Source: Marivirga arenosa
GTDB taxonomy: Bacteria > Bacteroidota > Bacteroidia > Cytophagales > Cyclobacteriaceae
Direction of reading: 5' to 3'
Assembly (NCBI RefSeq): GCF_030503875.2
Contig: NZ_CP129968.2
Span: 372,001-436,000 of the forward strand
Length of the DNA stretch: 64,000 nt
In this document: in pieces, positions 23,556-41,432 of the stretch
How the letters are laid out: each line of letters begins with the position of its first letter
How positions within the stretch are numbered: position 1 is the first letter of the stretch
Notes under the pieces: model-generated
Databases searched by the model: none
Told to the model about the DNA's origin: nothing
What the model saw: only the letters and a program-made list of their open reading frames with translations
Made by a program: the position numbers and the translations under genes

Positions 23556-23663
23556 GGATTTAATGCAATAAAATTATCAAATAAGTTAAGGAATAAATTT
23601 GATATTATCCGTGCGGAGATTAGACCAAAGGTTAATAGTGGTTATAGAAAGATTTAAAATAAA

Positions 23664-23695
23664 AAAATCGCACAAGAAATATCCTGTGCGATTTT
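23664..23695 (-). terminator. Intrinsic terminator of the PLP-dependent enzyme gene
   Basis: The stem AAAATCGCACA (23664-23674) pairs perfectly with TGTGCGATTTT (23685-23695). On the minus strand the second arm runs into seven T. It lies 25 bp after the stop at 23720. Confidence 0.8.
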
Positions 23696-23719
23696 AAATA
23701 AAGATCTAAAATATGATTC

Positions 23720-25567
23720 TTAATCAATGCTTTTCACAAAATCAGCAAATACTTGCTTATGCTTTTCTAAATCTAAGTCTGGAGAAACAGAAACTCTTGC
23801 TATATAGTCTTTATCTTCCTCTTTAGTAGTTCCTTGTGTGGAGGTAGCCGGAATAGTCCAATAGCAACCTTTTAGCTGACCATAACTCACGCAGTATTTA
23901 CTTTCATTTGGAATTTCTGTGATCATCATATCAATAAGCTTTTGGTTTAAAGCTCTTTTGTATTCTTCTCTTTCTTCATCTGTGTTGCCTTTAGTAGGAA
24001 GATCTAAGGAAAATACTGACGGAGTAAAATCTTCCTTAGCCAGTTCTTCAGAAACAAAATTTATTTTAGCAGAAGGCAAAGTTTCTTTTATAAAATTTAC
24101 AAACTCTCTTGTGTTTTTGTAAGCATCCTCAATTCTTTGATTCATAGACGGCAATTGTTCTGCCAAGATTTCAGTTTGCAAAGGAGTTGCTTCATTATCG
24201 CATAATTTTAAGTGCTTTTCAATTGAACTCATAAGGTGAGCGGCCTTTCTATTAGCCGTAACATAACCAGCTGTGCACTTACCGCCACTCGGAAATTTAG
24301 ATCCACTTACATATGAAATCACTTGAACTTCTGAAAGAATACCTTCTTCACTTAAGAATTGAATATTAGGGCAGAAGGTTTGGTCTAATATGAATATTGG
24401 GTCAATGGCATTTTCTCCATTAGGTGTTTTTCTATCTTTCACTAAAGCCTTTCTTAGAGCTTCCATATCTGGAACCTCAACTCTAGGGTTGGTTGGGATT
24501 TCTGCAATAATTAATGGAACAGCATCAAGTTTTGCTGCTTCATCTAAAACTTTGTCAGTTGATTGTACCATATCATTATCACCATCAACTGGTAAGTCCA
24601 TAATATCAACATTGTCAACAGCTGCGGCTACTCTTCTTGCCTGATCATTTGTTCCTCCATAACAGTTTGGTGGCACTATGATTTTTATGGCTTTGCCTGG
24701 ATGTTGTTTCATGGCATGTTCGATCAATCCCATCATAATGGCATATTGAACTGATAATCCGCATGATCCTAATAAGGCCTTTGTTTCGGAAGCTGTTATT
24801 TTTCGAATTGAATCAAGAACAGATTTCTTATTAGATTCAAATTGTGTCTGATCAAAAGAAGCAACTTTGTTTCCTTGAATTAATTGTAAGGCACTATACG
24901 AATTTTGAGGAGTCATAGCAATGGTTTCCCTCCTTCTTACATGCTGAATTGCAGGAATGTATGCTTCATTTTTAGCACCATTTACCATAAACACACTTCC
25001 GAGCTGACTATGAGAATTAATATAAAAGTCAATATTTTCGTTTAATTCTACCTTTCCTAAGTCGTTGGTAGCTTGAAAGAAAATGGTGCTCCCGCTAAAC
25101 TTTTCAATATCATCAAGGCTGTCAATTTTTTGAATTTTTAACGTATAATTATACGTTTGTTGAATTGTATCTAAATCCAAGGACTCAGGAAGCTCTCCTT
25201 TATAATAAAGTATTGTTTCTTTTTTATCAAATAGGTTTTTTCTTAATACAGCTAATATGGGAATAGTGCGAGATGCAAAACTTATAACTTGATCGGCTTT
25301 TAAACCATTTAATTTTGCGATTGACCATTCTAATACAGTTGACAGAGGGTGGCCTAATCTAATATAATCATAAGCGGTAGGAAGTTCGCTCAGTGTGGAG
25401 GTTTCAGAGTTTCCTTGTTCAAATAAGTTATTAAAGTGTTGAAGAAATTCAGTTTTTGCTAAATCTTCATTGTAAATATCTAATCTGTGAGTAGTAAGTT
25501 TTAACCAATCAGATGGAACATTATTCACTACATCATCGATATAATTTAAGACTTTATTTTCGCTCAT
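23720..25567 (-). CDS. PLP-dependent Cys/Met metabolism-type enzyme, extended
   Basis: The 615-residue protein belongs to the fold type I Cys_Met_Meta_PP group. Its core, from about residue 255, has LGSCGLSVQYAIMMGL, the EIPTNPRVEVPD segment, FILDQTFCPN and the probable PLP lysine in SGSKFPSGGK. Ordinary cystathionine gamma-synthases have about 390 residues; this one carries about 200 extra N-terminal residues with no clear motif. The substrate is uncertain (a sulfur amino acid is likely). It is monocistronic with a clear terminator and a TAACTTTG box about 100 bp upstream. Confidence 0.82.
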   Translation of the reverse strand: MSENKVLNYIDDVVNNVPSDWLKLTTHRLDIYNEDLAKTEFLQHFNNLFEQGNSETSTLSELPTAYDYIRLGHPLSTVLEWSIAKLNGLKADQVISFASRTIPILAVLRKNLFDKKETILYYKGELPESLDLDTIQQTYNYTLKIQKIDSLDDIEKFSGSTIFFQATNDLGKVELNENIDFYINSHSQLGSVFMVNGAKNEAYIPAIQHVRRRETIAMTPQNSYSALQLIQGNKVASFDQTQFESNKKSVLDSIRKITASETKALLGSCGLSVQYAIMMGLIEHAMKQHPGKAIKIIVPPNCYGGTNDQARRVAAAVDNVDIMDLPVDGDNDMVQSTDKVLDEAAKLDAVPLIIAEIPTNPRVEVPDMEALRKALVKDRKTPNGENAIDPIFILDQTFCPNIQFLSEEGILSEVQVISYVSGSKFPSGGKCTAGYVTANRKAAHLMSSIEKHLKLCDNEATPLQTEILAEQLPSMNQRIEDAYKNTREFVNFIKETLPSAKINFVSEELAKEDFTPSVFSLDLPTKGNTDEEREEYKRALNQKLIDMMITEIPNESKYCVSYGQLKGCYWTIPATSTQGTTKEEDKDYIARVSVSPDLDLEKHKQVFADFVKSID

Positions 25568-25665
25568 AATTTAATATGTTAGTTCGGGATTTGTTACTGT
25601 TTGTTAAAACCCATTGTTTTCCTATCAAAAATAGAACACGAAATTAAGCAAGAAGAAGTTGTTGA

Positions 25666-25673
25666 CAAAGTTA
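25666..25673 (-). promoter_or_regulatory. Possible -7 box for the PLP-dependent enzyme gene
   Basis: TAACTTTG on the minus strand matches TAnnTTTG. The upstream -33 region holds TTTA rather than TTTG at 19 bp spacing. The gene start lies about 100 bp downstream. Confidence 0.3.
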
Positions 25674-25752
25674 TGCTGAAAGTGTTATTTCATAAACTAA
25701 GTCGTAAGACTATCCAATTTTCTTTGATAAAATTTAAAAATATAATTTTCCT

Positions 25753-26001
25753 TTATTTTAGAACCAATCTTTTAATGGTGATTCTGAGCAACTTCGAATA
25801 TTTTCCAATATTAGCACCTCCATCAAAAACGATTCTAGGATTTAGTTTCGCTAATTTTTTTAGGAGCAGTTCCTCTCCATTGCTTTTAGAATCATAATTC
25901 TTGTTTTCATAAAATCTATTCATGGACCTTTCGAAACCAGCTAAGGCTTTGAAAAATGAGTTATGTGTATTTCTTCTAAAAACCGTTCTTAAAACTCCCA
26001 T
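25753..26001 (-). pseudogene. Remnant of an FkbM family methyltransferase (5' part)
   Basis: The 82-residue frame resembles the N-terminal part of Bacteroidota FkbM methyltransferases: a basic start, FERSMNRFYENKNYD, NGEELLLKKLAKLNP, then IVFDGGANIGKYSKLL. This last segment is the SAM-binding motif I, normally FDVGANIG. After that the frame drifts into TIKRLVLK and stops. The remaining roughly 150 residues of such an enzyme are not found in the next 185 bp in any frame. It is therefore a broken gene, unless short forms exist. Related intact enzymes usually act in surface glycan clusters, none of which is present here. Confidence 0.6.
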
Positions 26002-26076
26002 CTATGTTTTGCAAATCTTAATATAAGCATGAAAGTAGCAAATAATATTTCAGTGCTAAAAAGGATTACTCAATTC

Positions 26077-26928
26077 TTAGTAAGTAGTCGTCATATCTTT
26101 ATCCACACAAATAATAAAATCCGCTTTATTGAGATTCTCTTCTTCTAATTGATTAATATTTACCTGTGATACAGTTGAAATAGTGGCATAATTTAAATCA
26201 TCCCGTTTCTGTTTTAAATACCACAATATGCCTTCATATTTATCGGAATGATAAGCACCATTATAATGAATAAAGGTATGATTCTCTGAATAGTTCTTTA
26301 ATATAAAATGAGCCATAGTTGCATCTTTTATGGCTTGTGCCATGACCAATTTTGGACTGCCGTGCTCTCCCATCATCTTCAGAATATTTTGGTAGGTTGG
26401 TAATTCAGGCTTAAAAATAATTGGCAAAGGAGCAATCCACTTTTTTTCTTCATCTGAAAGTGAATCAAGCGCTTCAAATCCTTTTCGGTAAACTAGGTTA
26501 GCATACCTTCTTGGAACGTTAGTCGCAATAAAATCTAACTTTTTATCTTTGGCAAAATCAACTAACGGAGCATAATCTGTTTGATAATTCGGCCATAGCC
26601 TGGCTAATGTGTCCAAGCCTTTATAGTTTAAACTATCGATTAAATAAAGATTTAAGGCTTCTTGATTATCAGCTTCCAACATTTCTGCTCCTAAAATAAG
26701 CGGCTTAGATTCATGAAGATCTGCAGTTACTTCATATTGAAGCCAATGTGCAATGGGGTTGTTATGCAACTCTCCAAATAAGATGATATAACTTTTTTGA
26801 AGTGATTTAAGCATCTTTTCGTAAGAAACCTCTTTTCCATTAGCCTTGTAAATCACATAGGGCTGTTTCTGACTAAATATAACATTTGAAAGAATTAAAA
26901 AGTAAAGTATAAAAAAGAGCTTCTTCAT
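26077..26928 (-). CDS. ChaN-like (haem-binding uptake/Tiki superfamily) exported protein
   Basis: The 283-residue protein has a Sec signal peptide ending near FSQK and no lipobox Cys. The body has the ChaN/Tiki-type motifs: IILFGELHNNPIAHWLQ (GExHxxP) near residue 50, LGAEMLEADNQ and a late FIHYNGAYHSDKYEGI motif. ChaN binds haem in Campylobacter; other superfamily members are metal-dependent peptidases. It is periplasmic or surface-exposed by inference. It is a single gene, with 74 bp to the esterase gene upstream. Confidence 0.82.
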   Translation of the reverse strand: MKKLFFILYFLILSNVIFSQKQPYVIYKANGKEVSYEKMLKSLQKSYIILFGELHNNPIAHWLQYEVTADLHESKPLILGAEMLEADNQEALNLYLIDSLNYKGLDTLARLWPNYQTDYAPLVDFAKDKKLDFIATNVPRRYANLVYRKGFEALDSLSDEEKKWIAPLPIIFKPELPTYQNILKMMGEHGSPKLVMAQAIKDATMAHFILKNYSENHTFIHYNGAYHSDKYEGILWYLKQKRDDLNYATISTVSQVNINQLEEENLNKADFIICVDKDMTTTY

Positions 26929-27002
26929 TAAAAGTATAATATTTTTAGTATCAAAGATGAATTTATTAAAATGAAGGGAGACTTAAATACTAATATCTAA
27001 TT

Positions 27003-28190
27003 TTATTTACTTTTCTTTAATGATTCAATTTTCATTTTTGCATGTTGGTTTTTAGGATTTAGCTCAATGGATTTTTCATAATTTTGACGGGCTTTTTTGT
27101 TTTCTCCTAAGGCCTCAAAAGCTTCACCTAGGCTATCAAATGCATTAAAGGAATTAGGATAGTTTTTAGTATTTAGTTCGAAAAGCTTTAAGGCTTCTGA
27201 TCTATCTTTTTCATCTTTCGATCTAAGTAAATAATATGCAATTCTATTTACCAAAAACTCTGGAGGATTAAATTCAAAGGACAGCCTGTTAGATAACAAC
27301 TCAAAATGTTTAACTAGTTGCTCACTATCATTAATATCTCTATAATATACCCCATACCCTTCAAAAATGGATGTAATCGCATTATAAAAAGCTAGTGGAG
27401 GTACGGAACCGTGGTTTTCATTTTCGAAGTACTCATATTTAGCGGGAAATTGACCGTCACATTTACTATTTAATGCTTCAAATAATCTCAAATGACGATC
27501 ACGGTTAGTGAAATTTCTTTTCCCCCAATTAGCCGTAGCGAGATACAAATATCTATCAAAGGAATTTTCAGTAACAGCGGCTATTTTCTGATCCATAGTG
27601 TTAGCATCCCAGGTTCCAAAGCTTGGGTCTACTGCAATAAAAGCATTAAAAAGGGTTTCTTCTTTCATGTAGGCATGTGTTGCTAACAAGCCTCCTAAAG
27701 AATGACCGAAAAGGATTCGATAAGGAATTGTTCTATACTTCTGATCCAATTCCGGAATAAGTTCATCTTCCAGAAAGGATAGAAAGTTTTCCCCTCCTCC
27801 TGTATCATTTTCTCTAACGGTAACCACTTTATCTGGAGTAAAATCTCTCCGTCTGTTTACATTCTGAATCGCCACCACTATCATTTCTGGTACTCTGGTA
27901 TTTCCATTATATCCAGAACTCATATAGTCTAACATTCCAGAGATTGATTTAAAATGTGCGTCTCCATCTAATACAATCAATATGGGGTATTCTTTATATG
28001 AGTTTTCTATGTTAGAATACGATTCAGGAAGGCTAATCCAATACTCTCGCTCTTCATCTAGAATGTTAGAATGTATTGTATGCTTTTTGCCGATTATTAT
28101 AGATTCCGAATCCTGTGATTGTGCTGAATTTAGTTCAATCAGTAATAATAGAAGAACAATGATTTTATTTCTCATTTTAATTTGCAGCAT
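27003..28190 (-). CDS. Esterase (alpha/beta hydrolase, IroE/Fes-like) with C-terminal TPR
   Basis: The 395-residue protein begins with a signal peptide (the start may be the second ATG at 28175, MRNKII). Residues 30-270 form an esterase-D-like alpha/beta hydrolase: YPILIVLDGDAHF, the nucleophile elbow FGHSLGGLL and a late catalytic His in ENENHGSVPP. Such enzymes hydrolyse esters, for example siderophore or sugar esters. The last 70 residues form one or two TPR repeats (NAFDSLGEAFEALGENKKA). It is probably periplasmic. The substrate is not predictable. Confidence 0.88.
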   Translation of the reverse strand: MLQIKMRNKIIVLLLLLIELNSAQSQDSESIIIGKKHTIHSNILDEEREYWISLPESYSNIENSYKEYPILIVLDGDAHFKSISGMLDYMSSGYNGNTRVPEMIVVAIQNVNRRRDFTPDKVVTVRENDTGGGENFLSFLEDELIPELDQKYRTIPYRILFGHSLGGLLATHAYMKEETLFNAFIAVDPSFGTWDANTMDQKIAAVTENSFDRYLYLATANWGKRNFTNRDRHLRLFEALNSKCDGQFPAKYEYFENENHGSVPPLAFYNAITSIFEGYGVYYRDINDSEQLVKHFELLSNRLSFEFNPPEFLVNRIAYYLLRSKDEKDRSEALKLFELNTKNYPNSFNAFDSLGEAFEALGENKKARQNYEKSIELNPKNQHAKMKIESLKKSK

Positions 28191-28289
28191 TTGATATGTT
28201 TATAAAACTCTAGTTTGAATACTATTATTGTAATATCTCTAGTTCTGAATGTTTTCTTTGCTCTTTATTTAAGATGAAATAGCTCATTT

Positions 28290-28323
28290 GAAAGCCAGCT
28301 TTTCAGATAAAATAAAGGCTTTC
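28290..28323. terminator. Weak hairpin after the serine hydrolase gene
   Basis: GAAAGCC (28290-28296) pairs with GGCTTTC (28317-28323), about 7 bp after the stop at 28330 on the minus strand. The T-run lies on the plus-strand side (seven T after 28324), so as a minus-strand terminator it is weak. Confidence 0.35.
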
Positions 28324-28329
28324 GTTTTT

Positions 28330-29394
28330 TTAATTTGGATTATAGATTTCAACAGCTTTTCTTATCAGTTTCATTTGAGTTTGAATGCTATTTCTTCTTT
28401 GGTACTCACTCTTTGTTTTAAAGGCTAAAACAACATCTATTTCAGGGTAAACCGTAATGTTTTGTCCTAGGGCACCTTGAGCGGAATAAGCATTTTTAAG
28501 TTTGTTGTCGTCTGTGTTTTCAATTAACCACCACATATACCCATAGCCTAAATCAAGTCCATCTTCTTTTAAGATAGGCGCATTTTTTTGAGCCTCCTGA
28601 TAAGATGTTCTTTGGGTAACCATTTCTTTCACCCATTCTTTAGGAATAACTTGCGTATCTTTCCATTTTCCCTTTCTAAGCATCAATAAGCCAACACGTG
28701 CCATATCTCTTGTAGAAAACCATATGTGGTAAGCAGGAAATTTCGATACTTCTAGATTTCCATTTTTTAGTTGTAAAGACCTATTCCAATCTTGCATTTG
28801 AAGAGGAAGCACTAATTGCTTTTCAATTTCATCATAGATGTTTTTCTTCGTTTCTTTTTCAAAAATATAACCTGCTAAATTGAAATCCCAGTTACTATAA
28901 AGCCAATAACTTCCTGGTTTTACAGAACCTCTTTTGGGGGCTAATCTTCTAAAATCACCCCCATTAGATCCGGGTAAAAAAACGCCTGAACGTGCTGATA
29001 TGACGTCCTTGATAGTTGCTGATTTTTCAATTTCAAGTAAAGGGGCATGATCCTCAATTTTTAATTCACCTAGCGATTTATCTAAATTGATCTGACCATT
29101 TTCCACATATTTACCATAGAGAATTGCCAATATGCTTTTTCTACAAGATGCGATATAGCTGTTTTCTTCTGTATCTCCATATTCAAATACAATTTTACCC
29201 TTATGAATAATAACAAGACCTGTAACATTAGTACTATCAATGATATAGCGCATGAAAGTTGATCGTTCCGTATCTCTCCAGCCATCTAAAGCAGGGTTTT
29301 GATTAAGTGCCCAGTTTCTATTGGGATAAATCTGCGCTTCGCTTGAACAGCTCAATAAAAAAGAGGAAATTAATAGGAGGAATGTTGCTCTCAT
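28330..29394 (-). CDS. Serine hydrolase (class C beta-lactamase family), lipoprotein
   Basis: From ATG 29394 the protein has 354 residues and a lipobox signal (SSFLLSC). The SxxK catalytic motif appears as SCRKS in YIASCRKSILAILYG, and the YxN motif as YSN in YWLYSNWDFNLAGY. A late QGALGQN segment may replace the KTG/HxG motif. This is the broad esterase/DD-peptidase-like group labelled beta-lactamase family, with unclear substrate. A longer frame begins at 29454 but would place 20 residues before the signal peptide. It lies 87 bp after the small membrane protein gene on the same strand. Confidence 0.85.
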   Translation of the reverse strand: MRATFLLLISSFLLSCSSEAQIYPNRNWALNQNPALDGWRDTERSTFMRYIIDSTNVTGLVIIHKGKIVFEYGDTEENSYIASCRKSILAILYGKYVENGQINLDKSLGELKIEDHAPLLEIEKSATIKDVISARSGVFLPGSNGGDFRRLAPKRGSVKPGSYWLYSNWDFNLAGYIFEKETKKNIYDEIEKQLVLPLQMQDWNRSLQLKNGNLEVSKFPAYHIWFSTRDMARVGLLMLRKGKWKDTQVIPKEWVKEMVTQRTSYQEAQKNAPILKEDGLDLGYGYMWWLIENTDDNKLKNAYSAQGALGQNITVYPEIDVVLAFKTKSEYQRRNSIQTQMKLIRKAVEIYNPN

Positions 29395-29481
29395 TTTTTG
29401 TTTTAATAAATACCATATATTGGTAAAAAAGCTGTTTGCTATGGTTCTATTCACAGTTTGTAAAAGAAACGCAATATAGGC

Positions 29482-29862
29482 TTATTTAATTGCTATAATA
29501 AGACTCGTGATAAATTGAATTAAAGCCACAGGAGCCCAAATACGTTCTATTTTACTGGGAGTAATGGTATTCATTATAGTACCGAAAATAAAAAATATAA
29601 CTATAGGCCAAATCCCGATACTAGAAATTGAATTTAGTTGAGGGAATAACAAATTTGCTTCAGATAAAACAATTGCTGACATAAAAGCTAAAATTAGCAT
29701 ATTCAAGATGGCAACGAATCGCATTTTTAAAGGATATTTTCCAGGGTATTTGCCCCCCATGGATGCCTTTCCCCATGGCACACCAGCGGCTAAACATCCT
29801 TGAAATATGATTACAATAAAAGTGAATGTAGTAAAGATTATGGCAGAGATTGTTTCTAGCAT
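29482..29862 (-). CDS. Small four-helix membrane protein
   Basis: The 126-residue protein has four hydrophobic segments (about residues 5-27, 48-68, 78-97 and 107-125). A conserved-looking loop, PWGKASMGGKYPGKYPLKMR, sits between the first two. I recognise this loop as typical of a family of uncharacterised small bacterial membrane proteins. The function is unknown. It is the last gene before the cassette-like region. Confidence 0.7.
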   Translation of the reverse strand: MLETISAIIFTTFTFIVIIFQGCLAAGVPWGKASMGGKYPGKYPLKMRFVAILNMLILAFMSAIVLSEANLLFPQLNSISSIGIWPIVIFFIFGTIMNTITPSKIERIWAPVALIQFITSLIIAIK

Positions 29863-30282
29863 ATTGAATTATTTAATGGGTTTTATTTTTTCCAAAATGT
29901 TTCAAAAGCCTTAAGGCTCTCAGTGTATTCCACCTAATGAGCTTTCTGGTTTTTTTCAAAGTGTACTTTCCCTGCCTAAACGGCCGGCACTTTTCTGCAT
30001 CCATTTATAAATTTTATTCGACTTGAATATACAGAATCTTAATCCATTCAGCATAGCTTTTGGGATAACAGCCATTTTATTTCCTGCTGGGTTTTTAATC
30101 TATTGGTTCATTTTATCTATTATTTACAACCAATATTCTATAAACCCTTCGGTATTATGTCAGGAAGCATTACATTATATTGCTTACGAACATTTGAATA
30201 AACCAACACCTTTTTCTATTGAAAAAAATATAGCGGCATTCCATCTTCCAAGGGATCAGTTCGCATATTCATTTTAGTATTT
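29863..30282. other. 420-bp gap, possibly a decayed cassette end
   Basis: No convincing gene is present. A 12-bp perfect palindrome AGCCTTAAGGCT lies at 29907-29918. The segment GCCTAAACGGCCGGCACT (29974-29991), read on the opposite strand, resembles the centre of the attC-like site at 31.1-31.2 kb. An 84-codon plus-strand frame from a TTG at 30023 has one hydrophobic helix but no other support. The stretch may hold the degenerate distal end of the cassette array. Confidence 0.4.
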
Positions 30283-31098
30283 GTTATCTTCTTTTCTTAA
30301 TTAAGTAATCTTCTGGGCTTAGTATTTCACCGAATTCTTTTATTTCAACAAGTTCTAAAAGGACTGTGTATCTGCCTAAAATTTCGTACTCCATTTTTAC
30401 GAACCCCACTTCTGAATTAAAATAAGTTGTTAAAATGGATTCCCCGAATGTACTCTTAGCGGTGCTTTTGGTTATCAAGCATCGAAATTCTCCCAGATGA
30501 GACGCAATATTTTTGAATCCTTTATTGGCATAAATTAAATCAATCGTCTGATCACCTTCCCATGTTGCCCATCTTCTGTCCTGCCATTTTTGATCTATCT
30601 TTATTTTATCCTGCCATTTCAAATCGGCTGAGGAAAACTTTACATAGGGAAATGGACATAGTTCTAAAATCTTAAAGAAGTTGCTTCTGGGTGGATGCAA
30701 CCAGATATTTTGAGCATTTTCAACGATCCCTGTATTTTGAAAGGTTTTTCCTTGTGGTTCAAATCCAATTATTACTTCTGTTTGTTTTTTATTAATTCTT
30801 TTTGATCTATTTACTGAAGCAGTCAAATAGATTATACTGTTCACTTGGCCTTTAGAAGATTCTTGAGAAATTTCCTCAAAATCCCAATCTGTATCAGAAA
30901 AAACTAATTGCTTTTCATCTCCTGATTCATAAATCGATAGTTGGTATAGAAATCCTCTTCCAGTTTTAAATATCGTATTATCAATGTCAGGATTTCTACC
31001 TTTTTCGATGTGGACGCTTTCATAGTCTTGTGCTTGAAGACCTGAAAAACTTATAACAAAAAGTATAATTATAAAAAGTCGCATAATTTAAAGATAAT
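30283..31098. repeat. Inverted repeat flanking cassette-like unit 1
   Basis: TTATCTT (30284-30290, preceded by G30283) and AAGATAA (31091-31097) form a 7-bp inverted repeat around the gene at 30284-31084. Read on the minus strand, the gene's stop codon lies inside AGATAAC, and ATTATCT precedes the start by 7 bp. The outer base is A rather than G at the start side. Confidence 0.4.
30284..31084 (-). CDS. Secreted protein of unknown function (cassette-like unit 1)
   Basis: A 266-residue protein with a signal peptide cut near LQAQ-DYES. The mature part is beta-rich with no Cys-based motif, and includes a WDFEEISQES segment and RSKRINKKQTEVIIGF. I do not recognise a family. The stop codon TAA lies inside the flanking repeat (AGA-TAA-C), so the gene fills the unit almost completely. 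It sits on the same strand as the other two units and has no visible promoter of its own. Confidence 0.75.
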   Translation of the reverse strand: MRLFIIILFVISFSGLQAQDYESVHIEKGRNPDIDNTIFKTGRGFLYQLSIYESGDEKQLVFSDTDWDFEEISQESSKGQVNSIIYLTASVNRSKRINKKQTEVIIGFEPQGKTFQNTGIVENAQNIWLHPPRSNFFKILELCPFPYVKFSSADLKWQDKIKIDQKWQDRRWATWEGDQTIDLIYANKGFKNIASHLGEFRCLITKSTAKSTFGESILTTYFNSEVGFVKMEYEILGRYTVLLELVEIKEFGEILSPEDYLIKKRR

Positions 31099-31222
31099 GA
31101 CCAACTATCATCCGTAAGCTATACTTTTTAAATTTCTATGAATTTATCTAATCGCACAGTCCTTTGCAAGTAGCCCAATTAGTGCGGCCGGCTAGGCCTA
31201 AGGATGATAGTGTTTGTTAGCG
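31091..31222 (-). repeat. attC-like imperfect palindrome between units 2 and 1
   Basis: The arm ACTATCATCCGTAAGC (31104-31119) pairs with GCCTAAGGATGATAGT (31196-31211), 14 of 16 positions including an uninterrupted 10 bp. An inner CGCAC/GTGCG pair lies at 31153-31157 and 31182-31186. Outside the stem, on the minus strand, CGCTAAC (31222-31216) stands 5 bp after the stop of unit 2. GTTGGTC (31105-31099) or ATTATCT (31098-31092) stands before unit 1. The order half-site, spacer, stem, loop, stem, spacer, half-site is that of an integron attC (R''-L''-L'-R'). Confidence 0.45.
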
Positions 31223-32007
31223 AATTATCAATTTAATGAGTTTATGTACCTCTGTATAACTGTTAATGCAATTTCTGGTTTGGGTATTGGAGGAATCATT
31301 AATTTGACTTTTCCAGTATGATCAACCATATAATAGATTGGAAATAGTTCGGTATTAGAAATAAGTTCTTTCTGAATATTATCTACTAAGTATATGTTTT
31401 GGGTTTTTTTTAGAAAGCTTTTTGTGAAAAAATGGTCTAATGACTTGTCTTCGTTAGTGGACACTAAGAGGAAGTCAATATCTGAATATTGTTCAATCAG
31501 GCTCAATAAGTCAGCACGAATTTTAATCCAGGTAATATCATCAACGATTACAAGAATCGAATTCGGATTACTTTTTTCTTTTCCAATACAAATTTTATTT
31601 GAAAAAGCATTTTTCGCACATAGTGATGTGATAGTATCGCCCATCTTTAATTTAGGTTTAAAAAACGGAAAATTTTTAGTGCTAATCACTGTGCTTCCAT
31701 CTGTATGGACTTGATATTGATTATCAACTGGACTGCTAGGGTCTCTTTTTCTAATTAAATGCTCTATCTCAAAAAAAGAATTAATAGAAGGTATTGAAAT
31801 GTATTCGCCTGTTCTCATCAACTCAAGGGCTTTTTTATGGCTAATTATGTTTCCAATCGAATCTAGATGGAAGAACATATCGTCAGGTTTTTCATCTAGC
31901 TCTATAGTTTCCTGTGCCAAAATATTAAAACTGAGAAACACAATGAAAGTGGTAATAATAAATGGCAGGCTAATTTTCATACTATTTCATTTGGTTTATT
32001 CGCTAAC
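31216..32007. repeat. Inverted repeat flanking cassette-like unit 2
   Basis: GTTAGCGAAT (31216-31225) and ATTCGCTAAC (31998-32007) are perfect 10-bp inverted copies. They lie 2 bp after the stop codon and 17 bp before the start codon of the gene at 31228-31980. Confidence 0.55.
31228..31980 (-). CDS. Secreted thioredoxin-fold-like protein lacking CxxC (cassette-like unit 2)
   Basis: A 250-residue protein with a signal peptide cut near ILAQ-ETIE. The second half resembles a thioredoxin/AhpC-type fold. It has a strand NSILVIVDDITW, a segment DIDFLLVSTNED where these folds carry a beta strand, and near the C terminus LFPIYYMVDHTGKV, which corresponds to the cis-Pro and strand region. No redox CxxC is present; the two Cys residues (LCAKNAFSNKIC) are nine residues apart. 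This is a weak structural guess; the function is unknown. It is bounded by a 10-bp inverted repeat. Confidence 0.72.
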   Translation of the reverse strand: MKISLPFIITTFIVFLSFNILAQETIELDEKPDDMFFHLDSIGNIISHKKALELMRTGEYISIPSINSFFEIEHLIRKRDPSSPVDNQYQVHTDGSTVISTKNFPFFKPKLKMGDTITSLCAKNAFSNKICIGKEKSNPNSILVIVDDITWIKIRADLLSLIEQYSDIDFLLVSTNEDKSLDHFFTKSFLKKTQNIYLVDNIQKELISNTELFPIYYMVDHTGKVKLMIPPIPKPEIALTVIQRYINSLN

Positions 32008-32131
32008 GCTTAGAATATGGGGCGTTGGGCTTTTCAAGGCTCCAAACTTCCAATTCCTCACATATTTTCTTAAATGTAATCATTTTCAACTTTAGCACTA
32101 TCTGCCCAATGACCTATATTTAGTGTTACAG
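32001..32131 (-). repeat. attC-like imperfect palindrome between units 3 and 2
   Basis: In plus-strand order: TAAC (32004-32007), TTAGAATATGG (32010-32020), TTGGGC (32025-32030), a central loop, GCCCAA (32104-32109), CCTATATTTAG (32113-32123), GTTA (32125-32128). The arms pair as TAAC/GTTA, TAGAATATGG/CCTATATTTA with single-base bulges, and TTGGGC/GCCCAA. Read on the minus strand, the site begins with CTGTAAC 10 bp after the stop of unit 3 and ends with GTTAGCG before unit 2. The 131-bp length is inside the known attC range, and unpaired bulges on one arm are an attC hallmark. Confidence 0.5.
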
Positions 32132-33109
32132 GCAGTCTCTATTAGTGCGTCTCATATTTATACCTGAAAAATTCGCTTTCTCCGTTTGCCACTTTAATTA
32201 CAAGTTCGATTTTACCGAATTTATCATATTGATAAGTGTATTTTGTCTTTTTGTCTCTTCTTAAATCCACTTTGGCTGTCGAGATTAGTTGTTTATTTGA
32301 GTTGTATTCTAAAGTCTCACTTCTTGTTGTTAGGCCGTCTTTATCCAATATTTCCATTTTAACGAGATTGCCATTAATATCTAAACTATCAATTCTAAAC
32401 AACCTCTCATCTTCTGTATAGTGTTCAAGTTTGTTATCAGTTTTGATTTCATCTAGATGTCTCTTTTCATTTTCTTTAGTTCCATTTTTATCAAATTGGA
32501 TTTTAGTCACGTACTTTTTGCCATCAAAATATTCATAGTGATATTGGACGTAAATTACATTAGAAAGAAATCTAGTTTCAAGTAGAGGTCTCTCTTCGCT
32601 GTCATAAACGTAAACGTTCTTTAATTTCAAAGTACCGTCATCGTTATATTCTGAATATATTCTTATGTTCTCTGGTTTGATATAAGCTGTTTTTCTGAAA
32701 AGCAGACTGTCTTCAAGTTTGTACATTTTTCTTATCCCATCTTCAAACTTGTAATAATATCCATAACGAAACGAACCATCCGAATTAAAATATTTTGTTT
32801 CTGTTTCTCTGTTTTTATCATCAAAGCTGGAGGTAGATTTGCGGACGTAGTCATTTTCCATTCCGATTTGGATAATGGCATTCCCGTTTTTATCAAATTC
32901 ATGAATGGATGAAAGGGCAGTGTCTCTTAGGAAGAGAATCTTTTTAATGCCATGATTTTTGACAAATTCAGATATTGACATCCCTAAGTCAAGTTGATAA
33001 AATAGCTTTTCAGGTTCGTGCTGAATTTTTGATTGTCCATAAACAATTTGGGTAGCAAAAAGTAAAAATGTTAGAATTCTCTTCATTGGTTGGTCAAATT
33101 GCCTGTAAC
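32125..33109. repeat. Inverted repeat flanking cassette-like unit 3
   Basis: GTTACAGGCA (32125-32134) and TGCCTGTAAC (33100-33109) are perfect 10-bp inverted copies. They lie 7 bp after the stop codon and 13 bp before the start codon of the gene at 32142-33086. Confidence 0.55.
32142..33086 (-). CDS. Secreted protein with YD/RHS-like repeats (cassette-like unit 3)
   Basis: From ATG 33086 the protein has 314 residues and a signal peptide cut near VYGQ-SKIQ. The mature part is a chain of degenerate strand repeats with Tyr and Asp-Gly/Asn turns (FNSDGSFRYGYYYKFEDG, EYNDDGTLKLKN, YTYQYDKFGKIE). These resemble the YD repeats of RHS-type or MORN-like beta structures. No enzymatic motif is seen. 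It is the first unit of the array in the direction of transcription and begins 190 bp after the tolC stop, so read-through from the export operon could express it. A frame from 33125 would run through the repeat. Confidence 0.72.
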   Translation of the reverse strand: MKRILTFLLFATQIVYGQSKIQHEPEKLFYQLDLGMSISEFVKNHGIKKILFLRDTALSSIHEFDKNGNAIIQIGMENDYVRKSTSSFDDKNRETETKYFNSDGSFRYGYYYKFEDGIRKMYKLEDSLLFRKTAYIKPENIRIYSEYNDDGTLKLKNVYVYDSEERPLLETRFLSNVIYVQYHYEYFDGKKYVTKIQFDKNGTKENEKRHLDEIKTDNKLEHYTEDERLFRIDSLDINGNLVKMEILDKDGLTTRSETLEYNSNKQLISTAKVDLRRDKKTKYTYQYDKFGKIELVIKVANGESEFFRYKYETH

Positions 33110-33275
33110 AATTGAATAAGTGCACCTCGAGCTACACGTATTTGCTATATATTTATAACAATCTAACAATTTATTTAGAGGTAAAAAAGGCCCAATATAG
33201 TTTAGAGCCATGTTTTTTAGAGGGCATCAAAATTAACCGAATATTAAACGTTTAAATCTACAGTTATATATACAC

Positions 33276-34703
33276 CTAATTCGCCAACCATAGTTCTGGT
33301 TTTGCCCCTAGGCTATGGAGCCACTGACGGTAATATAAGCGATATTTGGTTTGTAAATCAATGTATTTCATTCGGGCATTCACCAAACTCATTTGCCGGT
33401 AGTTAATCAAAAAGATACTGCTCTCTCCAATCTCAAACTTTCTCAATTCTGCTTCTAATAAACTTTCATATTGGATAACAATATTCTGATAGGTAGCAAG
33501 CTGATTTGAAATATTGGCAAAGGTGTTTTCGTATTGTCTAGCTTTATTTTGTATTGACAATCTTTTTTGCTGTAAGGCAAAATTTGTATTCTCTAACTTA
33601 ATTTCATTCATTCGTAGCTCGCCTCTTGGTTGGCGTAGCAGTAGTGGCATACTGAAGCTCAACCCCCATTTATAATTATCCAAGCCCTGTATTTCGTTGA
33701 AGTTGTTGGAAGGGTCTTGCAATAAATTATATTCAAGATTAAGCTTAGGCTTTAATTTTTCCTTTTTTAAACGATTGTCAATTTGCAGCTTCTGAATCTT
33801 TAGTTCACTCTCTCTGATGGCAGGATGCTCCTGAATGAAAATAGGCAAACTTGCCCTTAAGCTATCAATTCTATTTTGTGAAATGGTATTAATAGCTGTA
33901 GCTCTTACGTCTGACTCCTCTATCGGGCCTTCCTGTCCCCATAAAAAAGTAAATAAGTTTAGTTTTGCGTTTTCTAAATCAACAGCTAATTGCTGATTTT
34001 GTATCTGGAGATTCTGTAATTGAATGGAAGCCTCCAAAGTATCAACGGCTGGTTTATCGCCTTGCTCGAAGGAAGTTTTATAGTTTAAGAAATTATCTTC
34101 TGCCAGTTCTATAGCCTCTTCAATTACTTTTTTCTGGTTTTGAAATTTAGCAAACTGCCAGTAATAATTTGCTCCTTCCAGAAGGATATCAATCAATAGT
34201 AGTTGGGCTTCGTTTTCGAATGCTCTTCTATCTACAAAAGCTGTTTGAAGTGCGGCTCTTCTATCATCAATAAACAAGCCTTGTAAAACAGGTACGCTTA
34301 CGCCTGCATACCATAAACCTGATTCAGGTAATGTTGATTCTCTACTTAAATTCTCACCGTCTGTCCAGTCATATCCACCTTGCAGTGTGATTCCAGTTCT
34401 AGTGGCTAAACTGATTCCTGACTCACTATATTGATAGTAATTTTTCTGATCGTAGTATTTTTGCTTGTTTTTAGAAAAAAGCTCAGGGTCAAAATTTCCT
34501 CTAGCAGCCATTACTGCAAAATCACCCATTTCTCTCAAATTTTGAGCTTGCTCAATTAAGGGATGATTTTCCATTACTAAGTTCAGAAATTCATACTCAC
34601 TAATTTTTTCCCCTAATATGGGAGAATCTTGTGCAAGGCTTAGCTTAGCTGAAGTAAGGCAGATAAAACCTAATAGACCAATATGAATGAATTTACGAAT
34701 CAT
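33276..34703 (-). CDS. TolC family outer membrane efflux protein
   Basis: The 475-residue protein has a signal peptide (cut near SLAQ-DSPI). Two long OEP repeats follow, with amphipathic coiled-coil helices and porin-like strands (LATRTGITLQGGYDWTDG; the second half SLSFSMPLLLRQPRGE). It would form the outer-membrane channel of a type I export or efflux system. Its start overlaps the end of the HlyD gene by 4 bp (ATGA). It is the last gene of the tetR-ABC-hlyD-tolC unit. Confidence 0.92.
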   Translation of the reverse strand: MIRKFIHIGLLGFICLTSAKLSLAQDSPILGEKISEYEFLNLVMENHPLIEQAQNLREMGDFAVMAARGNFDPELFSKNKQKYYDQKNYYQYSESGISLATRTGITLQGGYDWTDGENLSRESTLPESGLWYAGVSVPVLQGLFIDDRRAALQTAFVDRRAFENEAQLLLIDILLEGANYYWQFAKFQNQKKVIEEAIELAEDNFLNYKTSFEQGDKPAVDTLEASIQLQNLQIQNQQLAVDLENAKLNLFTFLWGQEGPIEESDVRATAINTISQNRIDSLRASLPIFIQEHPAIRESELKIQKLQIDNRLKKEKLKPKLNLEYNLLQDPSNNFNEIQGLDNYKWGLSFSMPLLLRQPRGELRMNEIKLENTNFALQQKRLSIQNKARQYENTFANISNQLATYQNIVIQYESLLEAELRKFEIGESSIFLINYRQMSLVNARMKYIDLQTKYRLYYRQWLHSLGAKPELWLAN

Positions 34704-36082
34704 TTCTTTTCTTTAGAATCTGATTTATCTTTTGCTTTCATATTTTCATTTCCAGTATTTTCTGGTGTATAGAAGTTTGGTGGGAAGCCATTAATTTGTC
34801 TCCATATTTCATACCATACTGGTACAGTATCCAATAAGGCTAAACCATTCGTTCCACCTCCAACTCTTAATGCATCTGGCCATTCTGGCTCATCAGGATC
34901 TTGAGCAATTAATATTCTATATTTACCGTTAGGGCTGATAAAGCGGTCTATGGCTACTACTTCACCTCCGAAGGTACCATATGTAATAATAGGCCAGCCG
35001 GAGAAAACGATAGACGGCCAACCGTCAAAAATTAATCTTACTTCGTTACCCACACTAAACAGAGGCAAATCTCTTGGATAAATATACATTTCGACTGCAT
35101 AATCAATCTCTGCTGGCATAATGGAAACTAATGATTCCCCTGCTTTTATGTTTTCACCAATTCCAGTGCTGACAGCTCTGGTAATATAACCATCCTGAGG
35201 AGCTGTGATATAATACATTCCAAACCTTACCTGATAGTTGGTTAATTGGTTTTCCATTTTCACCACCTCAGCTTGAGCATTTTGAAGCATTGAGCGGGTT
35301 TCGAATAAACTAGATCTAGCTTTTTGAAGCTTGTCGGTATATTCATTGTAAATAGAATTCAATTCTATTTTGGCATTCAAGAGTTTATTTCTACTGCTCA
35401 GTAATTTACTTTCAACGCTTATCTTCTTGGCTAATGACTCTTGATACTTAGAGGTTCTCTTTTCCAGATCAGTCAATGACTTTAACCCTTCATCATAGAG
35501 TTCTTTTTGTCGTTCTAACTGGCGATCAGCAATTCCTAAATTCGTTTGCGCAGCTTCATAATCTATACTATCAGCTTGAATTTGAAGCTCCGCTTGTCTA
35601 AGATAGTTTTTAGCCTGGTTTAATTTCAGTTGACGGTTTTCTTCAATTGCTACCACTTGACTTTTTAGAGCATCAATTTTTTCTTTATAAAAACCTAGGG
35701 ATTCCCTCTTAGCATCAATTTGATTTTGAGTACGCTCTAATAACCTAGGATCGAAGTATTCATCTTTTATCTCTCGTATAAAAATAATGGTATCTCCTTT
35801 CGCTACGAAATCACCTTCTTGTACATACCACGCTTCAATCCTACCATCTATTACGGAATTTAATTCTTGTGGCCTTTGAGATGGTGACAAAGCGGTAACA
35901 TGTCCATTTCCTCTGATATTTTGCGTCCAGGGTAAAAAGGCCACTACAAGAACTAGACCCAGAAAAGTGAGTAATAATTGCTTTAAAACCTTGTCAGCTC
36001 TTATTTCCTGAAATAAGCTGAAGGACTTGTACTTGCTAGTATCAATTTTATCTTTTAGGCTATGTGGGCTAATATTAAGCAT
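34700..36082 (-). CDS. HlyD family membrane fusion protein
   Basis: The 460-residue protein has one N-terminal membrane anchor (about residues 32-52). A lipoyl-like half (EAWYVQEGDFVAKGDTI) follows, then about 170 residues of coiled-coil hairpin and the second half-motif ITAPQDGYITRA. It ends in a low-complexity Lys-rich tail. It is the periplasmic adaptor linking the ABC inner-membrane component to TolC. Start and stop overlap the neighbours by 8 and 4 bp, showing tight translational coupling. Confidence 0.92.
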   Translation of the reverse strand: MLNISPHSLKDKIDTSKYKSFSLFQEIRADKVLKQLLLTFLGLVLVVAFLPWTQNIRGNGHVTALSPSQRPQELNSVIDGRIEAWYVQEGDFVAKGDTIIFIREIKDEYFDPRLLERTQNQIDAKRESLGFYKEKIDALKSQVVAIEENRQLKLNQAKNYLRQAELQIQADSIDYEAAQTNLGIADRQLERQKELYDEGLKSLTDLEKRTSKYQESLAKKISVESKLLSSRNKLLNAKIELNSIYNEYTDKLQKARSSLFETRSMLQNAQAEVVKMENQLTNYQVRFGMYYITAPQDGYITRAVSTGIGENIKAGESLVSIMPAEIDYAVEMYIYPRDLPLFSVGNEVRLIFDGWPSIVFSGWPIITYGTFGGEVVAIDRFISPNGKYRILIAQDPDEPEWPDALRVGGGTNGLALLDTVPVWYEIWRQINGFPPNFYTPENTGNENMKAKDKSDSKEKK

Positions 36083-37808
36083 TGCTATTCATACAAGTTT
36101 TTTTGAACCATTCGTTTTCCTTTATTTCAGAAGAAGGGATATCATAGATAATTTCACCACCTTCCATACCAAGTACCCGGTCACACTTTTGCAATATTTT
36201 CATATCATTACTAACCATCAATACGGTTCTGTTGATAGACTTATCACACAAATAATCTGTGAACTTTAGTTTTTCTTCTCTTGAAGTAGTTCCAAAAACA
36301 TCCTCCCAAAGAATCAATGACTTATTGCCTAAAATACCTCGAGTCCATTTTATTTGTTGTTGAATTTTTTTAGGAAATGTATTGTCTCCCGGATATATCA
36401 TGATTTGATATCCTTTGTTGGAGGATTCTATAAATTCTGATAGACCGGTTATTTCTGCTGCCTTTTGCACTTCAGAGAAACTACATAATGGGGAACCAAT
36501 CATTATATTTTCTTCAATGGTGCCCTGAAACAGATTTCCTGTTGACATGCAATCACCGATTTCTCTTCTAATATCGGTTAAATTAAGATCATTAGCAGGG
36601 ATACCGTTATATAAAATATTTCCTTCGTAATCATTATACCAACCACTTACAAATTGTAATAGAATTGCTTTTCCAGTATTAGTATCCCCCGCAATTCCTA
36701 TTTTTTCTCCTCCCTTAACATCTAATTCAAGATTGTTTAAGTAAACATAATCGGTCGTTTTGTCCGTAAGTGTAACCTTTTTCAACTTTAGAGACATGGC
36801 CTCTTGTTGATTGAAGTCTTTTGTATTATTGATGACATCTTCCAAAGGTAAATCAGTTACAGCGGCAATTTTTTCTACTGAAGTTAATACATCATATATC
36901 GACTCAATCGTAAAAATCATTTTTTCAACTGAATTAATAATCAAAATCACTATAATTTCAGCAGCGACAAACTGACCAATATTCATTTGCTGTTCAATTA
37001 CCAGAATACCTCCGATTAACAATAAGCCTGCTGCCACTACTGCTTTAAAACCAATCATTAAAGAGAACTGATTGATAATTACGTCAAAGTGGGTTTTTCT
37101 TGCTTTTATGTATGAGTCAGTTTTTTCATCATTTTTTTCTAATGACAAGGTAGACTCACCGGCCATTTTAAAGGTTTCTACGTTTCTAGCTAATTCTTCT
37201 AACCAATGTGCTGTTTCATATTTGTGCTTTGACTCTACAAGAGAGGTTTTTAGTCCTTTTGGCCCAGTAAACCGTACGATTAAAAATATTAGCAGAACTA
37301 GGAAAAAAGAAAAAACAATAAAAAACGGGTGATAAAAAGAGACTAATAATAAACCAAATATGATTTGAAAAAAGGCGGTCGAAAAATCAATTAAAATTTT
37401 AGATAAGCCTTTTTGAACTGACATGGTATCAAAAAACCGGTTAATCAATTCAGGTAGATATTGGTTTTTGATTTGGTCTAGTCTCAATCTTGGAATACGA
37501 TAGGCAAATTCAAATGAAGCACGACTAAATATTTTTTGCTGTAATACCTCATTAATAGTTAATTGACGTACCTGCAAATACCCATTAGCCACTATACCTA
37601 ATATAACCAAAATCACAAGTATAACCCAGGAAGTACTTACCTGACCCCCCATGATTAGATTTATAATTGCTTGTATACCCAAAGGCAAGGATAAACTAAT
37701 TAAACCTGCAAAAATTGCATAGAGGTAAATGGTGAAAACTAGGCTTTTCTCAGGTTTAAGTAACTGAAGAAATCTATTAAAAGGATGTATTTTAAAGTTA
37801 TCGTCCAT
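36075..37808 (-). CDS. ABC exporter with degenerate nucleotide-binding domain
   Basis: The 577-residue half-transporter has six membrane segments (about residues 20-300) and a C-terminal NBD from about 340. The NBD keeps the overall layout but not the catalytic residues. Walker A reads GDTNTGKA (final Ser/Thr is Ala), and the Q-loop segment reads IGDCMSTGNLF without Gln. The LSGGQ signature is missing (PKKIQQQIKW), Walker B ends LILWEDVFG (Asp-Glu order reversed) and the switch His is replaced (VSNDMKI). It resembles the type I/HlyB group without peptidase domain. ATP hydrolysis is doubtful. The operon is otherwise intact, so it is not a decaying pseudogene by context. Confidence 0.85.
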   Translation of the reverse strand: MDDNFKIHPFNRFLQLLKPEKSLVFTIYLYAIFAGLISLSLPLGIQAIINLIMGGQVSTSWVILVILVILGIVANGYLQVRQLTINEVLQQKIFSRASFEFAYRIPRLRLDQIKNQYLPELINRFFDTMSVQKGLSKILIDFSTAFFQIIFGLLLVSFYHPFFIVFSFFLVLLIFLIVRFTGPKGLKTSLVESKHKYETAHWLEELARNVETFKMAGESTLSLEKNDEKTDSYIKARKTHFDVIINQFSLMIGFKAVVAAGLLLIGGILVIEQQMNIGQFVAAEIIVILIINSVEKMIFTIESIYDVLTSVEKIAAVTDLPLEDVINNTKDFNQQEAMSLKLKKVTLTDKTTDYVYLNNLELDVKGGEKIGIAGDTNTGKAILLQFVSGWYNDYEGNILYNGIPANDLNLTDIRREIGDCMSTGNLFQGTIEENIMIGSPLCSFSEVQKAAEITGLSEFIESSNKGYQIMIYPGDNTFPKKIQQQIKWTRGILGNKSLILWEDVFGTTSREEKLKFTDYLCDKSINRTVLMVSNDMKILQKCDRVLGMEGGEIIYDIPSSEIKENEWFKKTCMNSNA

Positions 37809-37810
37809 TT

Positions 37811-38488
37811 TTAGTGCTGTAGGTTTTTAAGGATGATTTGGTAAAAAACATTTGATAATTCCTCAGTATCGGAATGAATATCGGAAAGAGAAGGCATATG
37901 TGCAGCAAAAAACTGTTGATGCAATATCCCCACTATACTTGTTGAGGCCAAAGTATTGGCGTGTCCAAATTTTGGATTTATTTCTAGCATTATCTCGGCT
38001 AAATGCTTTGATACCTTTTTAAAAGCTAAAAACAAACCATATTTATTCTCTTTATCGACTTCTTTTGTCAAATATGCTTTAGATGATTCTGAAATTACAA
38101 TGTTTATGAGTTGTTGATAGTTTAAGGTATTAATTTTATTCTCTTCGTCTTCTGGTTTACAAATAACCTCTACCGCACGCTTTAATTTTTGGGTAGGATC
38201 GCTAATATTTGTAGTACTAAATGCAAGTTGTAAATCAATCCAGCTCCAATACCAATTGTAAAAGTACAATAAAAGCTTGTGTTTACTTTCAAAATAGCGA
38301 TAAATCGAACTTTCTGTTGTGCATAATGCCTTTGCAAGTTTACCAAAAGTAAATCTTTCAAGTCCCATTGTATCAATCATCTCTAATGATTTGGAGAGAA
38401 TATTTCTTCCCAATTCAGATGATTCTGGGTCTTTTTGATAAAGATGAGGGTTTAACTCAATCTTAATAGTAGGCAAAGTATAATCCAA
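37811..38488 (-). CDS. TetR/AcrR family regulator
   Basis: The 225-residue protein has an N-terminal TetR-type helix-turn-helix: GLERFTFGKLAKALCTTE, then SSIYRYFESKHKLL, which holds the recognition helix and the Tyr-Arg-Tyr-Phe hallmark. A helical ligand-binding domain follows. It lies 2 bp before the ABC gene on the same strand, so it most likely represses its own export operon and is released by an exported compound. Confidence 0.92.
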   Translation of the reverse strand: MDYTLPTIKIELNPHLYQKDPESSELGRNILSKSLEMIDTMGLERFTFGKLAKALCTTESSIYRYFESKHKLLLYFYNWYWSWIDLQLAFSTTNISDPTQKLKRAVEVICKPEDEENKINTLNYQQLINIVISESSKAYLTKEVDKENKYGLFLAFKKVSKHLAEIMLEINPKFGHANTLASTSIVGILHQQFFAAHMPSLSDIHSDTEELSNVFYQIILKNLQH

Positions 38489-38553
38489 TTTTTCGCAATA
38501 TTAAAAGTAATACTATCGAAAAACGGATAATTGCTATTCTTGTTCTAAAATGT

Positions 38554-39969: not shown

Positions 39970-39996
39970 CGAATAAATTGATTTCTTAATTGAATT

Positions 39997-40494: not shown

Positions 40495-40548
40495 ATTTGA
40501 GTTTTTTCAATAGCTTTGTGAAGTTTAGAAAAAAGATTAGGATTATAT

Positions 40549-40622
40549 GGGGCATTAGCTCAGCTGGCTAGAGCGCTACGCTGGCAGCGTAGAGGTCATC
40601 GGTTCGACTCCGATATGCTCCA
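40549..40622 (+). tRNA. tRNA-Ala (anticodon GGC)
   Basis: The 74-nt cloverleaf has the acceptor stem GGGGCAT/ATGCTCC and a D-arm around AGCTCAGCTGGCTAGAGC. The anticodon stem CTACG/CGTAG holds loop CTGGCAG (anticodon GGC), and the T-arm is GGTTCGACTCC. The 3' CCA is not encoded. A terminator follows directly. Confidence 0.97.
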
Positions 40623-40623
40623 C

Positions 40624-40652
40624 AAAAGCTACTTCGAAAGAGGTGGCTTTTT
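40624..40652 (+). terminator. Terminator after tRNA-Ala
   Basis: AAAAGCTACTTC (40624-40635) pairs with GAGGTGGCTTTT (with two G-T pairs) around a GAAA tetraloop and runs into five T. It lies 1 bp after the tRNA and ends the transcript before the channel gene. Confidence 0.8.
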
Positions 40653-40702
40653 GTATTATATACCAACGGCTTTACTATATTTATCAAAATAACAATCTAT
40701 AT

Positions 40703-41392: not shown

Positions 41393-41432
41393 AATTCTCC
41401 TTCAAGAACTAATATAAATCAACGCATAGCTG

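Follow-up and report, generated by a model that had tools for sequence, protein, structure and literature searches.

Three neighbouring minus-strand genes of Marivirga arenosa, here called A, B and C, were analysed in a stretch of 64,000 nucleotides (positions 372,001-436,000 of contig NZ_CP129968.2, assembly GCF_030503875.2; this genome is labelled G000), which is called the window throughout. Together they make up, with a probability that we put at about 0.88, a short array of cassettes that belongs to an integron-like system of Bacteroidota. The array very likely works like an integron, as far as its sequences tell, and by the defining domain of the integrase its system is outside the IntI integrons. 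A full platform of the system would hold a tyrosine recombinase gene, a hairpin attI site right after its stop codon and co-oriented cassettes, each made of a gene and a folding attC site. The recombinase would excise and insert cassettes by G^TT cuts in attI and attC, and attC presumably acts as a folded single strand. The anatomy and the co-occurrence of integrase, attI and cassettes are shown by comparison of loci at the DNA level.

The first-pass annotation had described each of the three genes as bounded by its own inverted repeat. The repeats were found at its coordinates (33100-33109/32125-32134, 31998-32007/31216-31225 and 31091-31097/30284-30290), and on re-measuring their exact lengths were 11, 10 and 7 bp for units A, B and C. 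Shuffling of the flanks by single bases (3000 draws) gave P = 0.002 for a repeat of at least 10 bp and P = 0.136 for at least 7 bp, so the repeats of A and B are unlikely by chance and that of C, taken alone, is not; 13 other minus-strand genes of the window have flank repeats of 4-7 bp. Unit C is backed by comparison, since in the same-species genome G059 the homology starts exactly at the TT of the start of C. Short inverted repeats on both sides of each gene could also suggest a transposon or insertion sequence (IS) family with terminal inverted repeats that captured single genes, and an IS91-like pair with a tyrosine recombinase does end beside an attC copy in G004 (locus L120). The repeats match inside units and differ among units, however, none of A, B and C was recognised as a transposase, and the unit ends are a repeat common to other arrays; this explanation is hardly credible.

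Table 1. Features of the Marivirga arenosa window locus (positions in the window)
Feature	Position	Strand	Remarks
Palindromic element (TTAAACGTTTAAT...)	33232..33267	-	similar elements lie a few to ~70 bp upstream of the integrase start in several intact loci
Probable relic of the integrase gene 3' end (TTAGATTGTTATAAATATA)	33148..33166	-	by-eye comparison with integrase stops, and blastn
attI-like site, hairpin then TTCAATTG^TT	33107..33143	-	predicted cut between 33109 (G) and 33108 (T)
Cassette gene A, 315 aa	32142..33089	-	no family match above curated cut-off
attC of cassette A	32001..32134	-	R' 32125-32134; predicted cut between 32007 and 32006; dispersed genus repeat
Cassette gene B, 250 aa	31228..31980	-	no family match above cut-off
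attC of cassette B	31091..31225	-	arms CTATCATCC/GGATGATAG; junction GTCA^TTATC
Cassette gene C, 266 aa	30284..31084	-	no family match above cut-off; gene also in G059
Left half (R' + L') of attC of cassette C	30246..30290	-	right half not recognised

The palindrome has short blastn matches upstream of 7 distinct integrase loci of the genus (E 1e-6 to 0.03) and is absent in this form from loci L136 and L138. The relic has one short blastn match, to L097 (E 5e-5). The attI-like site has the form and position of the hairpin plus GTT found 3' of integrases, and it is common to G000 and G059 as far as the GTT, beyond which the cassettes differ. In the segment 33107-33267 the palindrome, a probable vestige of the integrase 3' end and a hairpin^GTT thus survive, which suggests the same platform minus its integrase. 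The integrase gene was probably lost between the upstream palindrome and its 3' end, leaving attI and cassettes A, B and C, and an intact integrase near 249 kb on the same chromosome could serve the array in trans. At least two further loci, L121 (G059) and L124 (G000), hold a palindrome and a hairpin inside ~210 bases as the window does.

The absence of an integrase from the window, claimed in the first-pass annotation, held in a PF00589 search of the whole genome, which found 13 places and none within C1:372001-436000, the window range; no recombinase adjoins A-C. As the attC sites of A and B are ~0.8 kb apart, the locus falls under the definition of a CALIN (cluster of attC sites lacking an integron integrase) used here, namely at least two attC sites less than 4 kb apart and without an integrase. 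The annotation had proposed a CALIN-like array or a related system; the cassette array of a Bacteroidota-type system stands, and the label of a plain CALIN does not. The array is best read as a degenerate or satellite platform because its own attI-like site lies beside a probable integrase relic. An ordinary CALIN, whose cassettes were once moved by a classical IntI integron and to which the local recombinase is unrelated, would agree with the attC anatomy and the G^TT junctions of classical type, and CALINs and complete integrons are counted in similar numbers (2961 vs 2760, excerpted text of PMC9024848). It is nevertheless unlikely: none of ten genus genomes has a TIGR02249 (IntI) match over the cut-off, a recombinase of ~380 residues with a hairpin attI lies directly upstream of arrays in the genus and in other families, and the attI-like site of the window is of the same kind.

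The genes themselves gave no explanation of the locus, since A and B were found in their own genome only and the relatives of C are distant. Among 98 genomes searched, gene A had a full match in its own genome only, with weak partial matches in two, gene B matched its own genome only, and gene C had distant relatives in 6 other genomes; protein B found no relative among GTDB contigs either. Genes A, B and C have a GC content of 31-33%, under the 41% bound used for the co-directional genes (at least two, behind a tyrosine recombinase) of a rAID (recombinase-associated acquired interbacterial defence) cluster, and the entire window, at 33.9%, lies under that bound as well. The attC of cassette C looks truncated, and the attC of B has related copies in L125 and, across 52 bases, in L120. 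Rfam gave no match up to E 1 on window 28000-35000.

Junctions were compared between the DNA of window 25900-33300 and ten genus genomes. G059 matches the window over 25900-31097 (93%) and 33107-33300 (98%), but from the GTT at 33107 to the TT at 31097 it lacks the DNA of the window, and its locus (L109) has other genes and cassettes in that place. The flanks of the two genomes are 93.8% identical over 6099 columns and 89.3% over 2903 columns. At the attI side the window reads ...TTCAATTGTT|ACAGG and G059 ...TTCAATTGTT|GTAGC, and at the start of C they read ...GTCA|TTATCTT and ...AACG|TTATCTT respectively. The common TT conceals which side was cut, and the breaks agree with G^TT. Their positions had been predicted without any relative at hand and were then matched by G059, so that the comparison with a close relative which the first-pass annotation had asked for placed the boundaries at GTT (33107) and TT (31097).

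Movement of cassettes was examined by comparing nine genus loci all against all at a minimum of 350 bp and 92% identity, which gave 13 matches. Ten of these are a gene+attC module present in two neighbourhoods whose sequences part at GTT, the GTT being at each aligned end or up to ~15 bases inside; the other three are the integrase flank of G000/G059, one match from AAC to a contig end and one with mixed ends. One module is 100% identical between G000 and G059 across 645 bp, and other DNA shared by the pair is 89-96% identical. Past movement of cassettes and precise junctions are thus shown by comparison, as read from aligned DNA. Three results support the claim that a unit bears the two halves of one site of its own, with the cut at G^TT: the G059 junctions, these modules parting at GTT and the complementarity of own halves described below.

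Tandem co-oriented cassettes with G^TT exchange were found, with one window junction having A for G. A stockpile of immunity genes linked to a recombinase, as in a recombinase-associated acquired interbacterial defence (rAID) cluster, with homologous recombination at repeated spacers, is improbable here, even more so than the ordinary CALIN. In its favour are the description of rAID (predicted tyrosine recombinase, co-oriented short genes, conserved intergenic motifs; PMC12247911, in part) and a Bacteroides ovatus plasmid array in which SMI1/KNR4 and Imm26 genes occur together with a related recombinase and own-half ends. The junctions, however, lie at G^TT and are not scattered along the repeats, and genes A, B and C have no match to an immunity family above cut-off in Pfam or NCBIfam, the two libraries used, so that orphan immunity cargo was not found. 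rAID may be the same machinery with other cargo and not a true rival.

The spacers between the genes, taken for attC-like palindromes in the first-pass annotation, behave as such in their dispersal, arm pairing and strand folding. Copies of the spacer after A are dispersed in the genus, 7 of 9 other genomes having matches (none listed for G007 and G008). Between AAC and GTT the copies are conserved, and outside these limits they vary, as expected if R' and R'' belong to different cassettes. For the attC of A, the bottom-strand fold is a long, imperfect hairpin with z -1.9, vs z -0.1 for the top strand. In 19 sequences of this repeat, tested with the structure taken from the window copy's own fold, 94.7% of cells kept paired, and 32-44% when the structure was slid. 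A larger set of 110 attC sites was taken from chained units, a few of which were mis-parsed (e.g. the integrase end in L131 and L134). As the chaining parser requires GTT/AAC complementarity, this set is no evidence for that feature, and the own-half counts are the independent test. After short and duplicate attC sites were dropped, 81 of 94 had an arm complementarity score of at least 8, a score reached by 804 of 6000 cross pairs and by 54 of 940 shuffled ones. The bottom strand was more stable by at least 1 kcal/mol in 71 of 109 full-length attC sites and the top strand in 14; with arms only, bottom was favoured in 67 and top in 17 of 109, and random segments gave 38 vs 72 of 324. R'/R'' ends, paired inner arms and bottom-strand folding are thus all present, folding being weaker in the genus and not seen for the attC of B.

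To test own halves, all 125 same-strand open reading frames (ORFs) that follow the integrase in nine genus loci and have 80 aa or more were taken. In 61 of these 125 genes the start is complementary to the end of the same gene across at least 9 bp, vs 838 of 15,500 cross pairs, and 56 of the 61 pairs have the GTT/AAC form (count from the printed list). We propose that the start of a cassette is complementary to the R' half of its own attC because a folded attC would be cut at G^TT.

The best sub-threshold TIGR02249 matches in the genus led to the probable integrase, a tyrosine recombinase of 372-390 aa. The G000 copy, found by the whole-genome search which the first-pass annotation had recommended, is intact (378 aa, C1:248838-249974, ~152 kb from the window array) and is followed by a hairpin attI and a long cassette array, which supplies the further units of the same architecture also sought there. 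Eleven loci with an ORF for the recombinase have the layout of a divergent Cys-rich gene (~116-129 aa), often a palindrome, then the recombinase, a hairpin, a few bases, GTT and, in those loci whose contig extends further, mostly co-oriented genes. In nine genus arrays 125 of 135 genes after the integrase are co-oriented with it; these arrays were chosen since they follow an integrase, and the window array and many dispersed attC copies (L110-L128) have no demonstrated integrase beside them. The divergent gene (L134 2045-2416 and equivalents) encodes a treble-clef-like protein of ~120 aa, below the Pfam cut-off, adjoins the integrase and is a possible accessory or regulator.

The recombinase has Phage_integrase and SAM4 domains behind an extra N-terminal domain of ~80 residues. 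An alignment of 11 genus integrases shows no variation at the catalytic R, K, HxxR, H and Y positions; it was relied on instead of a catalytic-motif filter that proved too strict (49 of 80 loci passed). The recombinase scores 216.6-225.3 with NCBIfam NF040815 (cut-off 220) and, for three integrases, 187.0-209.2 bits with TIGR02249 (cut-off 265); residues 180-241 of IntI4 (2a3v) are set against only 19 profile positions. The catalytic-loop Lys and HxLRH are 64-66 residues apart in 73 of 80 loci (seven unparsed) and 106 apart in IntI1, so the recombinase is without ~42 residues that IntI1 has, in the region required by IntI searches. An integrase of IntI type, marked by its specific additional domain near patch III, was thus not found. 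AlphaFold gave a predicted local distance difference test (pLDDT) score of 82 and a predicted template modelling (pTM) score of 0.54 for the whole protein, and 86 and 0.71 for the N-terminal domain, for which Foldseek returned no match at E<=0.001 among 754 (the best, XPB at E 0.09, was not used). In a tree of 40 rows, 21 integrases stand together (99/98), the B. ovatus and tet(X)-linked proteins come next (90/64), Pontibacter follows (97/94) and IntI1 lies outside; as IntI1 is the lone IntI and on a long branch, descent from or towards IntI is conceivable. The nearest sequence relatives of solved structure are archaeal XerA-like, and NF040815 scores lie around the cut-off, but in the tree the recombinase stands apart from the XerC and XerD of its genome, and it is tied to cassette arrays. 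The IS91-linked recombinase beside attC in G004 was rejected as the integrase, being paired with a transposase and on another tree branch.

The system resembles integrons in its integrase gene, adjoining attI, co-oriented cassettes with folding attC, R''/R' complementarity per cassette, G^TT exchange and better-folding bottom strand. It differs in that IntI has the additional domain and the recombinase here is without it, that this recombinase has an extra N-terminal domain, that attI is a near-perfect hairpin, and that integrase and cassettes are co-oriented. Classical attI is not known to have this hairpin form. The IntI-specific domain is treated as defining and is required by IntegronFinder in the part of PMC9668308 that deals with it, and an excerpt of PMC8138268 describes the integrase insertion as not fully conserved in an integron-like subgroup, yet essential for integron function.

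Beyond the genus, 58 of 396 genomes of the class had a match to the N-terminal part at E<=0.001, and in 18 of these, counting its own genome, E was below 1e-15. Twenty regions were fetched, and a filter found the integrase in 8, missing plain ones. Among the eight, L175, L176, L177, L179 and L185 have integrase, hairpin and cassettes, L172 has integrase and hairpin only, and the distant L188 and L191 have neither hairpin nor cassettes clear; among the 12 that the filter missed, L173, L174 and L181 gave chains of 7-9 units. A GTDB scan gave at least 565 confirmed stretches, the best 80 of which were used for layout counts; their titles name Flavobacteriaceae genera, Crocinitomicaceae, Cytophagales, Prolixibacteraceae and others. 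In 67 of the 80 loci the integrase is followed by a hairpin plus GTT, vs 41 of 800 random windows, and the end of the first cassette matches its own start in 41 of 49 testable loci vs 88 of 945 controls, so attI lies beside the integrase and joins the first cassette. The divergent Cys-rich gene is present in 41 of the 80.

Among the matches listed in a plasmid search are Persicobacter, Pontibacter, Rufibacter, Chryseobacterium and Bacteroides ovatus, with IntI1 below these, and the Pontibacter and Chryseobacterium plasmids have some cassette-like units. The B. ovatus plasmid recombinase (BFG-107, L274) is 47.8% identical over 73% of the query. Its rAID-like array (L274 4850-8810), with SMI1/KNR4 and Imm26 genes, has own-half ends with CATTA replacing GTTA: CATTA../..TAAC ends occur at seven starts with six distinct R', and the junction form is that of window unit C. 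As set out in part in the source, rAID clusters of gut Bacteroidales share with the present system a related tyrosine recombinase upstream of co-oriented genes and conserved spacers, and differ in being defined by immunity-gene cargo, which A-C do not match. On pHH1107 the tnpF recombinase (221 aa) has 51.9% identity to residues 141-370 of the query, and the DNA from tnpF to tet(X3) holds an attI-like hairpin^GTT (4140-4420 of L272, pHH1107 36067-43759). The Acinetobacter xerD/tnpF-tet(X) modules are alike in this order of recombinase, attI-like site and tet(X3), and differ in their recombinase of 221 aa and in that the end of the tet(X3) region is not complementary to its start, which points to an association with attI and not to an intact cassette. 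The xerD-tet(X3)-resolvase neighbourhood itself is known (PMC7758954, part of the text).

Several observations weigh against the reading of the window as an integron-like array. In the window, the integrase relic is based on short similarity, the B/C junction carries A at the expected G position, the attC of A has a z of -1.9, the bottom strand of the attC of B is not the more stable one (-13.4 vs -14 kcal/mol), and shuffled sequences fold as well as the attI hairpin taken by itself. Covariation among the A-type copies is no greater than in shuffles, and the strand bias in the genus is weaker (arms only, bottom 29 vs top 12 of 59). In the own-half test 64 of 125 genes are below 9 bp, some of which may be second cassette genes, wrong starts or no cassettes, and pairs of one end with the next start also reach at least 9 bp in 19 of 116, perhaps due to short attC sites lying in both windows compared. 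Thirteen of the 80 loci are without hairpin plus GTT (3 of the 80 have fewer than 60 bases after the stop), 39 are without the divergent Cys-rich gene by the pattern used, and the integrase of the Chryseobacterium plasmid, which has cassette-like units, falls outside the main clade of the tree.

Integrons are seldom reported from Bacteroidota. IntegronFinder 2.0 named one complete integron there (Salinibacter ruber M1), with earlier In0 elements only (excerpted text of PMC9024848), and a review counts the phylum among those with integrons (PMC8618304, relevant part). We lean, with some reserve, towards a phylum-wide integron class of Bacteroidota whose recombinase would handle folded attC without the IntI domain, with a hairpin attI, and which would have been missed as the software requires that domain; rAID clusters and recombinase-tet(X) modules would be members or debris of it, rAID genes would be cassettes, and tet(X) may have left Bacteroidota behind such an attI. 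No description of such a class was found in the full-text literature, subscription papers and bioRxiv being outside the scope of that search. If true, Bacteroidota hold long cassette arrays invisible to IntI-based tools, there is a natural test of the purpose of the IntI-specific domain, rAID genes would have a mechanism of gain, a process called not yet clear in the part of PMC12247911 concerned, and a possible route would link a tetracycline-inactivating gene to a recombinase.

The surroundings of the array were also compared. In eight other genus genomes (G001-G008) the TolC-like gene, which ends at window 33276, is followed by an asnB-like gene (window 14461-16359), with a gap of ~30-40 bases in five genomes and 1.4-2.4 kb of other DNA in G004, G006 and G007; G007 has a start-less asnB-like copy immediately 3' of the TolC-like gene. 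No ORF of at least 100 aa in the ~12 kb downstream of the TolC-like gene in these eight genomes matched window 16360-33276, so the array sits in an arrangement which they do not share. The 17-kb stretch 16360-33276 was likewise not found between the two genes in the eight genomes, and two of its genes match DNA at other places of genus genomes: 27003-28190 and 28330-29454 both do so in G004 and G005, and the latter in G006 as well.

Other mobile elements were seen near the arrays. In L120 (G004:C1:1370000-1379000, at 2387-4522) the IS91-like transposase and tyrosine recombinase end beside an attC copy; the label IS91-like was given by eye and by likeness to the annotated L276 and L280, and L278 has an annotated IS91-recombinase pair after the integrase. 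Group II introns are known to target attC, and their reverse transcriptases lie in or just after arrays in L273 (14747-16063, annotated), L135 (7871-8983, reversed) and L183 (3852-5114), the last two identified by eye. Four recombinase pairs with exact 7746-base spacing and equal scores lie at G000:C1:2557386-2584115 (L004-L007), and would be either a ~7.7-kb element repeated in tandem or a feature of the assembly.

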